This document shows positions 13,935 to 19,406 of a stretch of 64,000 nt of DNA, piece after piece; the stretch's first letter is position 1; each line of letters begins with the position of its first letter. The notes under the pieces were generated by a model. It was not told the DNA's origin, ran no database searches, and was given only the letters and a program-made list of their open reading frames with translations. The position numbers and the translations under genes are program-made. Source of the DNA: Natrialbaceae archaeon AArc-T1-2 (GTDB lineage: Archaea; Halobacteriota; Halobacteria; Halobacteriales; Natrialbaceae); NCBI RefSeq assembly GCF_030273315.1, contig NZ_CP127174.1, positions 1-64,000 of the forward strand, read 5' to 3'.

Positions 13935-14708
13935 ATGACAGATGTGAGCGTCATCGGCTGTGGAAACATGGGGAGTGCCCTCCTCGAGGGGCTCTCGGCG
14001 TCGGGTGAGTACACGTTGACGGCGTGTGACCTCGATCCGGACGCCCTCGAGGCGGTGTCCGCATACAGCTCGCGGACGACGTCGAACCTCGAGGAGGCGG
14101 CCGAAGCGGACGTCGTCGTCGTCGCCGTGAAACCCGGCGTCATCGAGAGCGTCCTCGCGGACCTCGAGCTGTCGCCGGAGCAGACGCTCGTCTCGATCGC
14201 GGCGGGCGTCGAAACGGCCACCCTCGAAGCGCACACCGACGCGACGGTCGTGCGCGTGATGCCGAACCTCGCTGCCGAGACGGGAACGATGGCCGCGGCG
14301 GTGACCGAACACAGCGTGACCGACGAGGTCCGGGACCTGCTCGATTCGGTCGGCGAGTACGTCGAGATCCCCGAAGCACAGATGGACATCGCGACCGCCG
14401 TCAACGGCAGCGGGCCGGCGTTCGTCTACCACCTCCTGGGCGCGATGGCCGAGGCCGGCGTCGAGGGCGGTCTCGAGCCCGAACAGGCCCGGGTTCTTGC
14501 CGCACAGACGTTCAAGGGGGCCGCCGAGACGGTCCTGCGCTCCGAGGACGACCTCGAGGCGATGATCGACGCGGTCTGTTCGCCAAACGGGACGACCATC
14601 GAGGGGATGAACGTCCTGTGGGACAGCGACGCGGACCGGGCGGTCACGGACGCAGTGATGGCAGCCGCAGAACGCTCCAGGGAACTCGCGGAGGGAGACG
14701 ATGAGTGA
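13935..14708 (+). CDS. proC: Pyrroline-5-carboxylate reductase
   Basis: A 257-aa NAD(P)H-dependent enzyme for the last step of proline synthesis. The N-terminus [17 protein letters not shown] is the Rossmann dinucleotide-binding motif. [30 protein letters not shown] and the C-terminal helix [13 protein letters not shown]...SPNGTT are family signatures. First gene of a three-gene operon. Its stop codon overlaps the proB start by 8 bases (ATGAGTGA, 14701-14708), so translation is probably coupled. Confidence 0.96.
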
Positions 14709-15534
14709 GACAGTCGCCCCGGACGCGATCGAACGGGCACGTGAGCTCGCGGCCGACGCCGACCGCGTCATCGTCAAGGCCGGCACGAACTCCCTGACCG
14801 ACGAGGACTCGAACTTGGACGACGAGAAACTCGACAAGCTCGTCGACGACCTCGCGGATTTGCTCGCACGGGACACGGAGGTCATCCTCGTCTCCTCGGG
14901 TGCGATCGGGGCCGGCAAGGGACGAGTGGACTACACCGGCGAGACCGTCGAGGAGTCCCAGGCGCTGTCGACCGTCGGACAGAGCCACCTGATGCGTCGC
15001 TATACGGAGAGTTTCGAACGGTACGACCGGAAGGTCGCCCAACTCCTGCTCACCCAGCACGACCTCGAGAACACCGACCGCTTTACGAACTTCCGGAACA
15101 CGATCGAGACGCTGCTGGAATGGGGCGTCGTCCCGATCATCAACGAGAACGACGCGGTCGCGACGAAGGAGATCCGCATCGGCGACAACGACATGCTCTC
15201 CTCGTCGGTCGCCATCGGCGTCGACGTCGACCTGCTTGTCACGCTGACCGACGTCGGCGGCGTCTACACGGGCAACCCCAAGCGGGACCCCGACGCCGAA
15301 CGCATCGAGGCCGTCGGCGACAACTACGACGAGGTCCAGGCCATCATCGACGAGAGCTCGAGTTCGACCTTCGGCGGCATCCAGACCAAGGTCCAGGGCG
15401 CACGCGAGGTCAGCGAACACGGCATCCCGGCGATCATCGCCAGGTCGACCGAGCCGGACGTGCTCGAGCAAATCGCTACTGGCAAGGAGGTCGGGACGCT
15501 ATTCGTCCCCATAAACGGTGTCACCGATGAGTGA
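14701..15534 (+). CDS. proB: Glutamate 5-kinase
   Basis: A 277-aa amino-acid kinase that phosphorylates glutamate for proline synthesis. Motifs: [12 protein letters not shown] near the N-terminus, [37 protein letters not shown] and [18 protein letters not shown]. Bacterial ProB usually carries a C-terminal PUA domain of about 100 residues; this protein stops after the kinase domain, like other short archaeal forms, so proline feedback may differ. Overlaps proC at its start and proA at its end by the same 8-base string. Confidence 0.95.
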
Positions 15535-16858
15535 GAAATCGATCGAAACCAAGGTAGCGGAGGCAGAGAGCGCCGCCTTAGAGCTCGCAACGCTTCCCGA
15601 CGAGAAGCGCCGCGCCGGCCTCGAGGCGGTCGCCGACCTGATCGACGAGCGCCACGAGGAGATCCTCGCGGCAAACGAGAAAGACGTCGCCGAAGGCGAG
15701 CGGATGCTCGAGGAGGGGGAGTACACGCAGGCACTCGTCGACCGCCTGAAACTCTCCGAGTCGAAACTCGAGGACATCTCCGAGATGGTCAGAAGCGTCG
15801 CCGCCCAGGAGGACCCCCTCGAGAAGACCCTGGAGGCGCGACGGCTCGACGAGAACCTGGAACTGTACAAGGTCGCCGTCCCCATCGGCGTCGTCGGGAC
15901 GGTCTTCGAGTCCCGACCCGATGCGCTGGTCCAGATCGCCGCGCTCGGGCTCAAATCCGGCAACGCCGTCATCCTCAAGGGCGGCAGCGAGGCCGCCCAC
16001 TCCAACCGGGTGCTGTTCGAAATCATCGAGGAGGCCACCGCCGACCTGCCGACCGGCTGGGCCCAGCAGATCGAGGCCCGCGAGGACGTCGACGCGATGC
16101 TCGAGATGGACGACGCGATCGACCTGCTGATGCCACGGGGTAGCTCGGCGTTCGTCTCCTACATCCAGGACAACACGAGCATCCCCGTACTCGGCCACAC
16201 CGAGGGGATCTGTCACGTCTTCGTCGACCGCGAGGCCGACCTCGAGATGGCCGAAGACATCGCCTTCGACGCGAAGGTCCAGTATCCGGCGGTCTGTAAC
16301 GCCGTCGAGACGCTACTGGTCCACGAGGACGTCGCCGCAGACTTCCTCCCCGGAATCGTCGAACGCTACGAGGAGGCCGGTGTCGAACTGCGTGGCGACG
16401 AACTGACCCGCGAAGTCGTCGACGTCGACGCGGCGACCGAGGAAGACTGGGACACCGAGTACGGCGACCTCGAGCTCTCGATTGCGGTCGTCGACTCGCT
16501 GTCGGCGGCGATGGACCACATCACGACCCACGGCTCGAAACACACCGAGTCGATCGTCACCGAGGACGACGACCGCGCCGCGACGTTCATGCGCGGGCTC
16601 GACTCCGCGAGCGTCTACCACAACGCCTCGACGCGATTCGCCGACGGCTACCGCTACGGCCTCGGCGCGGAGGTCGGCATCAGCACTGGAAAAATCCACG
16701 CCCGGGGTCCAGTCGGACTGGAGGGACTGACGACGTACAAGTACCACCTCGAGGGCGACGGCCACCTCGTCGCCACCTACGCCGGCGAGGACGCGAAACC
16801 GTACCGCCACGAGGAGTTCGACGGAGAGTGGACGTCCGGGACGCTCTCCGACGAGTAA
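15527..16858 (+). CDS. proA: Glutamate-5-semialdehyde dehydrogenase (gamma-glutamyl phosphate reductase)
   Basis: A 443-aa NADPH-dependent enzyme reducing glutamyl 5-phosphate. Seen: [48 protein letters not shown], and the catalytic Cys in [38 protein letters not shown] is near the C-terminus. The ATG at 15527 was chosen over the frame-open start at 15518 because it gives [10 protein letters not shown] and forms the ATGAGTGA overlap with proB. Last gene of the proCBA operon. Confidence 0.96.
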
Positions 16859-16968: not shown

Positions 16969-17133
16969 TCACTCGACCGGTTCGACCGCCTCCTCACCGC
17001 AGTGAGGACAGTTCGAATCGTCTTTCGCCACTCGTTCCTCGCAGGCCCGACAGACGTACTCGGCTTCCTTTCCGGCGATGAACGACTGTTTCGTTTCTTC
17101 GAACTTCTCCCCGGCCTTCCTGAATAAACTCAT
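16969..17133 (-). CDS. 54-aa zinc-ribbon protein
   Basis: A small protein, MSLFRKAGEKFEETKQSF, followed by a ribbon with YVCRACEERV and NCPHCGEEAVEPVE (C-x2-C...C-x2-C), predicted to bind one zinc ion. Haloarchaea have many such micro-zinc-finger proteins; their roles are mostly unknown. The ATG at 17133 was preferred over an upstream in-frame ATG at 17160. An A/T-rich stretch (GAATAATATATCG read on the minus strand, about 17173-17186) lies upstream as promoter. Confidence 0.75.
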   Translation of the reverse strand: MSLFRKAGEKFEETKQSFIAGKEAEYVCRACEERVAKDDSNCPHCGEEAVEPVE

Positions 17134-17453
17134 TGTTTGAGGCAGGCTATCGATCCGCATAAGCGTTGGGTCGATATATTATTCGATCTATTGACGACCG
17201 AATAAAGAAAGCAAGAGTCGACGAGTCTGCCTGCTGGCAGACGGGGACGTTCCGATCGGGAACGACAAAACCGTCTCTACGCGTCATCACAACGCTTTTA
17301 TCTCGCTCGAGAGTAGCCGTAGCTACGATGGTAGGTGTCCGCTTTACAGGGGCTTTCGCCCGTTTTTAACCCACACCTACCGCCGGCATCGTCGGTCGCA
17401 ATCGGCGAGTCGGCGGCCCGAGCGGACACGCCACCGGGGTTCTCACTACAGCC
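17134..17453 (+). promoter_or_regulatory. thrS promoter and structured leader (possible attenuator)
   Basis: A TATA-like CTTTTATCT (about 17296-17304) is followed by a hairpin GTAGC-CGTA-GCTAC (17313-17326). Two mutually exclusive 9-bp pairings then share bases 17335-17338: GGTAGGTGT (17330-17338) with ACACCTACC (17373-17381), or GTGTCCGCT (17335-17343) with AGCGGACAC (17421-17429). Inside the first lies GGGC-TTTC-GCCC (17350-17361) followed by GTTTTT (17362-17367), which resembles a terminator. The thrS ATG is at 17454. The bases before 17290 also contain the minus-strand promoter of the zinc-ribbon gene. Confidence 0.6.
17328..17369 (+). CDS. Possible 13-codon leader peptide upstream of thrS
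   Basis: ATG at 17328 sits about 27 nt after the TATA-like box, where a leaderless start would be. It encodes MVGVRFTGAFARF and ends at TAA 17367-17369. Codon 7 is ACA, a Thr codon rarely used in this GC-rich genome. The frame covers the 5' arm of both alternative stems and the whole GGGC/GCCC hairpin. It could be translated to sense threonyl-tRNA supply, but it is short enough to be chance. Confidence 0.3.
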   Translation: MVGVRFTGAFARF

Positions 17454-19406
17454 ATGTCAGAATCAGAATCACAGAAACGGATAGCGGTCGTACTGCCAGA
17501 CGGCTCGGAGCTCGAGGTCGGTGCCGGTGCGACGGTCGAAGACTGCGCCTACGAGATCGGTCCCGGCCTCGGTCGCGACACCGTCGCCGGTCGACTCGAC
17601 GGCGAGCTGGTCGCCAAAGAGGAGCCGGTCTACGACGGAGCCGAACTCGAGATCGTCACCGACGACGGCGGCGAGGACTATCTGCGGGTACTGCGTCACT
17701 CGGCCTCGCACTGTCTCGCCCAGGCCGTCGAACGGCTGTTCGACGCCGAGGAGGTCAAACTCGCGATCGGCCCGCCGACCGACGACGGGTTTTACTACGA
17801 CTTCGACAACTTGGACGTCGACGAGGACGACCTCGCGGAGATCGAAGCCGAGATGGAGGCGATTATCGAGGACGACTACGAGATCGAACGCGAGGAGGTC
17901 CCGATTGCGGAGGCCGAAGAGCGCCTCGCGGACGAACCGTACAAACTCGAGCTCTTAGCGGAGTTCGCCGACGAGAACGATCGGGTCACCTTCTACAGCC
18001 AGGGCGAGTGGGAGGACCTCTGTGCCGGCCCCCACGTCGAGTCGACCGGCGAGATCGGCGCGGTGAAACTGCTCGAGATCGCCGGCGCGTACTGGCGTGG
18101 CGACGAGGAGAATCCGATGCAGACCCGGATCTACGGCACCGCCTTCGAGGACGCGGACGATCTCGAGGACTTCTTAGAGCGACGCCGCGAGGCCGAGAAA
18201 CGGGACCACCGTCGGATCGGATCGGAGATGGATCTGTTCTCGATCCAGGACGTCACCGGTCCCGGCCTCCCGCTGTATCATCCGCCGGGCAAGACCATCC
18301 TGAAGGAACTCGAGGACTTCGTCGAGGAGCTCAACCAGGAGGCCGACTACGACTACGTCGAGACGCCCCACGTCTTCAAGACCGACCTCTGGCGACGGTC
18401 GGGCCACTACGAGAACTACGCCGACGACATGTTTCTCTTCGAAGTTGGCGACGACGAGTTCGGGCTCAAGCCGATGAACTGCCCCGGCCACGCCGCCATC
18501 TTTCAGGACCAGTCCTGGTCGTATCGCGATCTCCCCATCCGCTACGCCGAGAACGGGAAGGTCTACCGCAAGGAACAACGCGGCGAACTCTCCGGGCTCT
18601 CGCGGGTGTGGGCCTTCACGATCGACGACGGCCACCTGTTCGTTCGCCCCGACCAGATCGAACAGGAAGTCGAGGAGATCATGGACATGATCACGGACGT
18701 ACTGGAGACGTTCGACCTCGAGTACGAGATGGCGCTTGCGACCCGTCCCGAGAAAAGCGTCGGCGGCGACGAGATCTGGGAGCGCGCCGAGTCCCAGCTC
18801 GAGTCGGTACTCGAGGCCCGCGAGCACGACTACGTTCTCGAGGAGGGCGACGGCGCATTCTACGGCCCCAAGATCGACTTCGCGTTCGAGGACGCGATCG
18901 GACGATCGTGGGACGGCCCCACCGTCCAGCTGGATTTCAACATGCCCGAGCGGTTCGACCTGAGCTACGTGGGCGAGGACAACGAGGAACACCGCCCCGT
19001 GATGATCCACCGGGCGCTGTACGGCTCCTACGAGCGTTTCTTCATGATGCTCATCGAGCACTTCGAGGGGCGGTTCCCGCTGTGGCTTGCTCCCGAACAG
19101 GTCCGCGTGTTGCCGATCTCCGACGACAACCTCGGCTACGCTTACCAGGTGGCAAACGAGTTCGAGGAGTTCCGCGTCGAGGTCGACGACCGCGATAGCA
19201 CGCTCGAGCGCAAGATCCGCGCGGCCCACGACGACCGGGTCCCCTACCAGATCATCGTCGGCGACGACGAGGAGGAGGCAGGCAACATCTCGGTTCGAGA
19301 CCGCTTCGAGGACCAGGAGTACGACGTCGAGGCCGAAACGTTCCGCGAGCATCTCGCGGCCGAACGCGACGAGCAGCGGACGGAGCCGGACTTCCTGCAG
19401 AGGTGA
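17454..19406 (+). CDS. thrS: Threonyl-tRNA synthetase
   Basis: A 650-aa class II synthetase with the full bacterial-type domain set. A TGS domain occupies about residues 10-75; the editing/N2 domain includes [13 protein letters not shown] and [10 protein letters not shown]; the catalytic core has [17 protein letters not shown] (motif 1), [16 protein letters not shown] (motif 2) and [22 protein letters not shown] (motif 3, split here for reading); the C-terminal anticodon-binding domain starts near [13 protein letters not shown]. Many archaea instead have an archaeal-type ThrRS with a different editing domain, so the bacterial form is of note but known in haloarchaea. The start is the ATG at 17454 after the structured leader. 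Confidence 0.96.

Follow-up and report, generated by a model that had tools for sequence, protein, structure and literature searches.

A conserved leader upstream of haloarchaeal thrS as a candidate threonyl-tRNA sensor acting by +1 ribosomal frameshifting

The thrS locus and its upstream mini-ORF

The 64,000-nt stretch of DNA analysed here (the window) comes from a member of the Natrialbaceae, order Halobacteriales, and carries thrS, a gene for threonyl-tRNA synthetase (ThrRS) of the bacterial type (Table 1). Close relatives of this thrS are found in Halobiforma, Natronococcus, Natrinema, Natronorubrum, Natrialba and others. On the 5' side of thrS lie neighbouring genes resembling a proline biosynthesis cluster (proC, proB, proA; 13935-16858) and, divergent from thrS on the minus strand, a zinc-ribbon-like ORF of 63 aa (CRACEERVAKDDSNCPHCGEE; 16969-17160). 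When Rfam 15 covariance models were applied at the gathering score, no family match was found anywhere in the window. A tRNA search of the genome returned 46 tRNA genes, three of them for tRNA-Thr, one each with anticodon GGT, CGT and TGT; the codon ACA should be read by tRNA-Thr(UGT), which has a single gene.

Table 1. Features of the thrS leader and gene in the window
Feature	Position	Strand	Description
TATA-box-like CTTTTAT	17295..17301	+	about 28 nt 5' of the mini-ORF ATG; from sequence
Mini-ORF, frame 0	17328..17369	+	reads MVGVRFTGAFARF, then stop; 13 codons, starts MVGVRF
P1, 5' arm	17330..17338	+	GGTAGGTGT; codons 2-4 of the mini-ORF; covariation
Second pairing, 5' arm	17335..17343	+	GTGTCCGCT; excludes P1; confined to Natrialbaceae
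TTT-ACA, proposed +1 slip site	17343..17348	+	UUU in the P site, hungry ACA in the A site, then CAG in the +1 frame
Open +1 frame	17347..17484	+	TAG at 17482, 28 nt past the thrS ATG; overlaps the thrS start by 31 nt
Predicted trans-frame product			MVGVRF + 45 aa
Small hairpin GGGC-TTTC-GCCC	17350..17361	+	followed by GTTTTT; in most, not all, families
Frame-0 stop TAA	17367..17369	+	ends the mini-ORF seven codons past ACA
P1, 3' arm	17373..17381	+	ACACCTACC; just 3' of the mini-ORF stop; covariation
Second pairing, 3' arm	17421..17429	+	AGCGGACAC
thrS	17454..19406	+	bacterial-type threonyl-tRNA synthetase, 650 aa

An earlier note on this DNA had described a possible attenuator upstream of thrS, built around a leaderless mini-ORF behind a TATA box. 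All coordinates in that note were verified as correct, and the mini-ORF recurs in every leader gathered. Leaders were gathered first from the Natrialbaceae and then from other families by covariance models, giving a total of 169, from which a de-redundant set of 75 representatives (37 from Natrialbaceae and 38 others) was drawn. In all 169 thrS leaders, which come from several Halobacteriales families, an in-frame ATG is followed by TTT ACA and then by a stop. The distance from ATG to TTT is 15, 18 or 66 nt, each a multiple of 3, and the frame-0 stop (TAA, TGA or TAG) lies 15-39 nt past TTT in every case. Changes among the mini-ORFs include synonymous and in-frame ones (CGC/CGT, TTC/TTT, TAA/TGA). 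Measured from its third base, a TATA-like hexamer precedes the ATG by 27-31 nt in 62 of the 75 representatives. In most representatives the predicted TATA box stands about 28-31 nt 5' of the ATG, and the mini-ORF is therefore probably leaderless; the thrS transcript is predicted to start at the mini-ORF ATG or a few nucleotides from it.

The hexanucleotide TTTACA is invariant (169/169 leaders). In six genes of the window, TTT accounts for 8.5% of Phe codons and ACA for 5% of Thr codons, so that the ACA noted earlier as a rare Thr codon is indeed rare, and is also fixed across the leaders. The codon preceding TTTACA always ends in C or T, and TTC was never found at the slip-site position among the leaders. 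Most mini-ORFs have one Thr codon (151/169), while 16 have two and 2 have three. As in an attenuator, the leader thus contains an ORF with cognate codon(s). Since a conserved, probably leaderless mini-ORF with a single rare Thr codon is linked to the ThrRS gene, sensing of Thr-tRNA by the leader is very plausible. Two leaders (L241 and L242, from genomes G077 and G021) carry an in-frame insertion of 51 nt, placed between TTT and codon 3 or 4; it shifts ACA to about codon 24 and keeps the frame and the RFTRA-ARF end before the stop. Two candidates for a stimulatory element near the slip site, P1 and an AGGTG motif, lie 5' of TTT; in these two leaders P1 or part of P1 is kept, and the AGGTG motif is lost.

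Covariance model R1 gave matches in 138 of 392 Halobacteriales genomes and in 43 of 95 genera. The leader is present once per genome in nearly all genomes that have any, and nearly all checked matches lie directly 5' of thrS. Matches away from thrS (L226, L235, L236, L237, L240) were set aside as chance, many of them falling within other genes. Weak second matches occur in three genomes (G034, G096, G309), and two further matches (L350, L351) have no thrS nearby. Because the inspected thrS loci without a match mostly have a promoter of their own, about 25-30 nt before thrS, and no leader, the leader is, on this evidence, either complete or missing. In one genus of family f17 (g45), most species gave no match (16 genomes) and sister genera retain the leader; the single g45 locus inspected (L260, genome G140) has thrS without a TTTACA leader. 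This suggests that the leader was lost recently in g45.

Inspection of the same genome as the window revealed no similar leader 5' of the ile, leu, val, met, ser, pro, gly, his, tyr or trp synthetase genes. At leuS, an upstream ATG falls within a TATA-like GAAAGNTATA motif. Upstream of the glycyl-tRNA synthetase gene glyS, a 34-codon ORF preceded by a TATA-like motif overlaps the gene start (L383; C1 near 1568013). It was rejected as a conserved leader, relatives being arranged otherwise, and appears unconserved.

RNA pairings in the leader

None of 200 dinucleotide shuffles of the leader folds as well as the native sequence (z -3.6). The earlier note had proposed two mutually exclusive 9-bp pairings, of which the first, P1, is conserved across families. 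Five of its 12 model pairs show two-sided changes (18 cells; 0/500 shuffles) in an alignment that was fitted to the model and is therefore biased in favour of P1. In an independent duplex test, P1 reached p<=0.05 against shuffles in 34 of the 37 Natrialbaceae and in 20 of the 38 other representatives. The second pairing did so in 22 of 37 Natrialbaceae, where codon 5 and the distal arm vary in a compensatory manner (CGC/GCGGAC, CGT/ACGGAC, TGC/GCAGAC). Comparison with relatives thus upheld the mini-ORF, its Thr codon and P1, and both pairings are genuine in Natrialbaceae, but the second pairing does not extend beyond that family (3/38).

The note had further pointed to the small hairpin and the T run behind it, which in an attenuator would form a terminator. 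The sequence is there in the window; however, a run of five T after the hairpin occurs in 4 of 169 leaders, and the GGGC/GCCC hairpin itself is missing in part of family f4. The candidate intrinsic terminator at 17363-17367 was therefore rejected, its T5 not being conserved.

These observations bear on ribosome-mediated attenuation along the lines of that note, in which a stall at ACA would select one pairing and so determine either termination or accessibility of the thrS start. The conserved Thr codon would fit this scheme, as would the covariation of both P1 and the exclusive second pairing of Natrialbaceae. However, a conserved intrinsic terminator with a U tract was not found among the leaders, and a ribosome stalled at ACA would occlude both 5' arms (17330-17343) rather than choose between them. 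When folds were computed with a ribosome masking either ACA or the mini-ORF stop, the cost of opening the thrS start showed no consistent difference between the two positions (lower in 13 and higher in 14 of 37 Natrialbaceae; 16 and 17 of 38 others), so that ribosome-governed exclusive pairings did not emerge. Attenuation in this form is distinctly unlikely. A stall-driven structural switch at the thrS start was rejected for the same similarity of the masked folds, and in predicted folds of native leaders the thrS start is no more sequestered than in those of shuffled ones. Because the second pairing is limited to Natrialbaceae and the masked folds are alike, a pairing switch is not the common mechanism; exclusive pairing may matter inside Natrialbaceae. 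P1, together with the alternative pairing in Natrialbaceae, probably tunes mini-ORF initiation or slippage.

The +1 frame between the mini-ORF and thrS

Overlooked in the earlier note is a conserved +1 frame that is open from TTT-A to the thrS start. Attenuation does not predict an open +1 frame ending at thrS, and its presence points to frameshifting rather than to classical attenuation. Although the leaders span 42-231 nt from the mini-ORF stop to the thrS ATG, the first stop in the +1 frame, entered at TTT-A, falls within -16 to +40 of that ATG in 62 of the 75 representatives. Dinucleotide shuffles gave an expectation of 28.7 (z 9.6, a value that is strong and not exact, since the representatives are kin to one another). 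The other two frames share the base composition and served as internal controls: in the same interval, the first stop is found in 6 of 75 for the +2 frame (6.5 expected) and in 2 of 75 for frame 0 past the mini-ORF stop (4.4 expected). Among leaders from outside Natrialbaceae, a single stop occurs in 1195 codons of the +1 frame, whereas the other frames contain 18 in 1190 codons and 11 in 930. Selection has therefore held the shifted frame open to a functional end, as in programmed +1 frameshifting, while the other frames are at expectation.

The junction lies at the thrS start in nearly all cases, and its exact form varies among families. Most f17 leaders have ATGA, part of f7 has GGTGTAACC(A)ATG, and f4 has TGACATG, TGATATG or TGATG; GGTGTAACCATG is also among the forms seen. 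The +1 stop accordingly lies at -5/-6 in f7 and at -4/-2 in f4; in most Natrialbaceae it falls within thrS, 22-37 nt into the gene. In 57 of 75 representatives, the spacer between the end of the mini-ORF and the thrS ATG is divisible by 3. In f4 species whose spacer of 74 or 77 nt is not a multiple of 3, the +1 stop is still at -4 (TGACATG or TGATATG), so that the constraint acts on the end point of the +1 frame and not on spacer length. In five lineages outside Natrialbaceae (L225/L342, L228, L208/L331, L329, L338) the +1 frame extends beyond the range that was tested; a few leaders outside that family show an early end, at -24 to -67. A Shine-Dalgarno motif precedes thrS in 18 of the 38 non-Natrialbaceae representatives.

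One genome (G202; L221 / L308) carries a 69-nt insertion that is missing in its relatives; the frame-0 stop is displaced, and the +1 frame is open to thrS. In two other genomes (G348 and G428; L238 / L346 / L347) the gene downstream of the leader encodes an archaeal-type ThrRS (MKLLFIHSDHLEFE...), whose N terminus is non-homologous to that of the bacterial type, and the +1 frame ends 16 nt 5' of the gene. This suggests that the leader stayed put while the synthetase gene was swapped.

Two other uses of this spacer were considered and rejected. Readthrough of the mini-ORF stop into thrS had come to mind because the spacer is so often a multiple of 3; any of the three stops is used, however, and further frame-0 stops occur in many f17 leaders. 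The +1 ORF was likewise rejected as a conserved small protein, substitutions hardly favouring third positions. The bias across codon positions in the +1 region is small (104:117:136), and it is therefore apparently the openness of the frame, not the peptide, that is selected.

The main rival to frameshifting is that the +1 frame is an ordinary upstream ORF, self-starting at a GTG (17335 in the window) and coupled to thrS, with the frame-0 mini-ORF (ATG 17328) as a decoy and the choice of start, perhaps made through P1, setting the output. A +1-frame GTG does lie 9 nt 5' of TTA in 165 of 169 leaders, both starts are within P1, and openness of the +1 frame as far as thrS is conserved. Against this reading, the GTG is lost in L125/L241, and the +1 frame of L130/L242 contains neither ATG nor GTG nor TTG 5' of TTTA. 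From the position of the promoter, the 5' end of the transcript would coincide with the ATG and not with the GTG, and the frame-0 start and stop survive in-frame indels in several lineages. Nor would an invariant TTA-CA be explained, given how little the +1 ORF is constrained as a peptide. We consider a self-starting +1 ORF unlikely.

A putative frameshift sensor and its relation to known systems

The interpretation we favour is that ribosomes enter the +1 frame from the mini-ORF by slipping at TTT-ACA. UUU is the Phe codon for which a +1 slip, here onto UUA, leaves two pairs intact, and every leader combines a slip-prone sequence with a slow codon in the A site, as in programmed +1 frameshifting. 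The fact that TTC was never seen at this position would be explained because UUC disallows a slip that keeps two of three pairs. A point against frameshifting is that a G-A mismatch remains when tRNA-Phe(GAA) sits on UUA.

We hold, with somewhat better than even confidence, that the thrS leader is a Thr-tRNA sensor acting by +1 ribosomal frameshifting. In its favour are the rare yet invariant TTT-ACA, the end of the +1 frame at thrS and the canonical coupling junctions that differ by family, along with the insertion in L221 that leaves the +1 frame open and the occurrence of the leader before a non-homologous, archaeal-type thrS. Against it stand the predicted folds, which give no sign that thrS is closed by default, the +1 frames that overrun the tested range or end early outside Natrialbaceae, and the GTG start candidate present in nearly all leaders. 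That the leader is a natural hungry-codon switch, in which scarcity of charged Thr-tRNA(UGU) causes a +1 slip at UUU-ACA and thereby coupling to thrS, and that this operates across Halobacteriales, we put only slightly above even.

Such a switch would work as follows. The transcript would begin at the mini-ORF ATG, and ribosomes would translate MVGVRF. With charged Thr-tRNA(UGU) at hand, ACA would be decoded, termination would occur in frame 0 a few codons further on, and thrS translation would stay low. When Thr-tRNA(UGU) is scarce, the A site at ACA would remain empty and tRNA-Phe could move from UUU to UUA, as the invariance of UUUACA suggests, after which reading would go on at CAG/CAC in the +1 frame. 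Shifted ribosomes would bypass the nearby frame-0 stop and traverse the +1 frame, which is free of stops, to the thrS start. There they would terminate on or beside the AUG, with termination-reinitiation or at least opening of the start region. More ThrRS would restore charging and close the loop.

Coupling is the least certain step for the window, because the +1 stop (17482) lies 28 nt beyond the thrS ATG. A stop that overlaps the start or lies a few nucleotides from it is found in f17 (ATGA), f7 and f4, whereas in Natrialbaceae it is mostly 22-37 nt inside. Overlaps of 1-4 nt have been shown to couple well; those of Natrialbaceae are longer. Termination-reinitiation at overlapping genes has been demonstrated experimentally in Haloferax volcanii (PMC6728339, PMC10666635), and in haloarchaea Shine-Dalgarno motifs serve chiefly such reinitiation.

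Two other readings of the same leader deserve mention. In the first, the +1 shift and the coupling are genuine but run at a constant efficiency, setting a ratio without sensing Thr. The sequence evidence for this is identical to that for the Thr sensor; however, the A-site codon is Thr in every leader and the downstream gene is always a threonyl-tRNA synthetase, the unrelated type included, and we regard a set ratio as very unlikely. In the second, the mini-ORF is incidental and the leader is bound directly by ThrRS or by uncharged tRNA, as in a T-box or at the E. coli thrS operator. Linkage of the leader with thrS would agree with this, as would the complementarity between the invariant UUUACA and UGUAA in the anticodon loop of tRNA-Thr(UGU). 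Yet the Rfam search of the window returned no T-box or other family, indels have left the start codon, frame and stop intact, and the +1 frame is left unexplained, so that direct binding has only a very slight probability.

A 2016 review of frameshifting stated that hungry-codon frameshifting had no known products with a starvation-specific function (PMC5009743), and a 2021 review of archaeal recoding gave one demonstrated programmed frameshift, a -1 shift in Saccharolobus (PMC8211752). No description of the thrS leader was found in the open-access papers searched; subscription papers and preprints lay outside the scope of that search. If the proposed sensor is real, it would be a frameshift-based starvation sensor for a cellular gene, an instance of programmed +1 shifting in archaeal cells, and a case of RNA- or ribosome-based control of a synthetase gene in archaea.

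Among known systems, the leader would work most like the ketolide-induced frameshifting of ermC joined to the autoregulatory logic of release factor 2. In bacterial release factor 2 (prfB), +1 frameshifting is autoregulatory. As in the proposed thrS switch, a slow A-site codon signals shortage of the gene's own product and a +1 slip in the P site raises expression. RF2, however, senses release at UGA, and its shift joins two parts of one protein, whereas in the thrS leader a Thr codon would do the sensing and the shift is proposed to bring the ribosome, by coupling, to a distinct gene downstream.

The ermC leader ORF undergoes ketolide-induced frameshifting (PMC5009743, section 28). There too a short leader ORF is the sensor, and shifted ribosomes cross a spacer to switch on the downstream gene. 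The signal in ermC is a drug and is independent of a cognate codon and an evolved slip site; in the thrS leader, by contrast, the codon is cognate to the downstream synthetase, the +1 frame ends at the start codon and the host is archaeal. Known +1 sites include CUU_AGG_C of Ty1 and UCC_UUU_CGU of influenza PA-X (PMC5009743, PMC3498833). Like TTT-ACA, they have a P-site YUU followed by a slowly decoded codon and shift in the +1 direction, and PA-X also has UUU in the P site; they differ in yielding viral or transposon products on eukaryotic ribosomes and are not starvation sensors.

With the bacterial attenuators (trp, his, thr, pheL) the thrS leader shares an ORF containing a codon that matches the function under regulation and, in Natrialbaceae, alternative pairings. 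It differs in its lack of a conserved terminator, in having usually one cognate codon, in being probably leaderless and archaeal, and in its open +1 frame. The overlapping gene pairs of Haloferax volcanii (PMC6728339, PMC10666635) have ATGA or TGATG junctions and Shine-Dalgarno-like motifs near their reinitiation sites, as here. In those pairs no change of frame is needed to read the upstream ORF, whereas the +1 frame before thrS would need to be entered by a shift.
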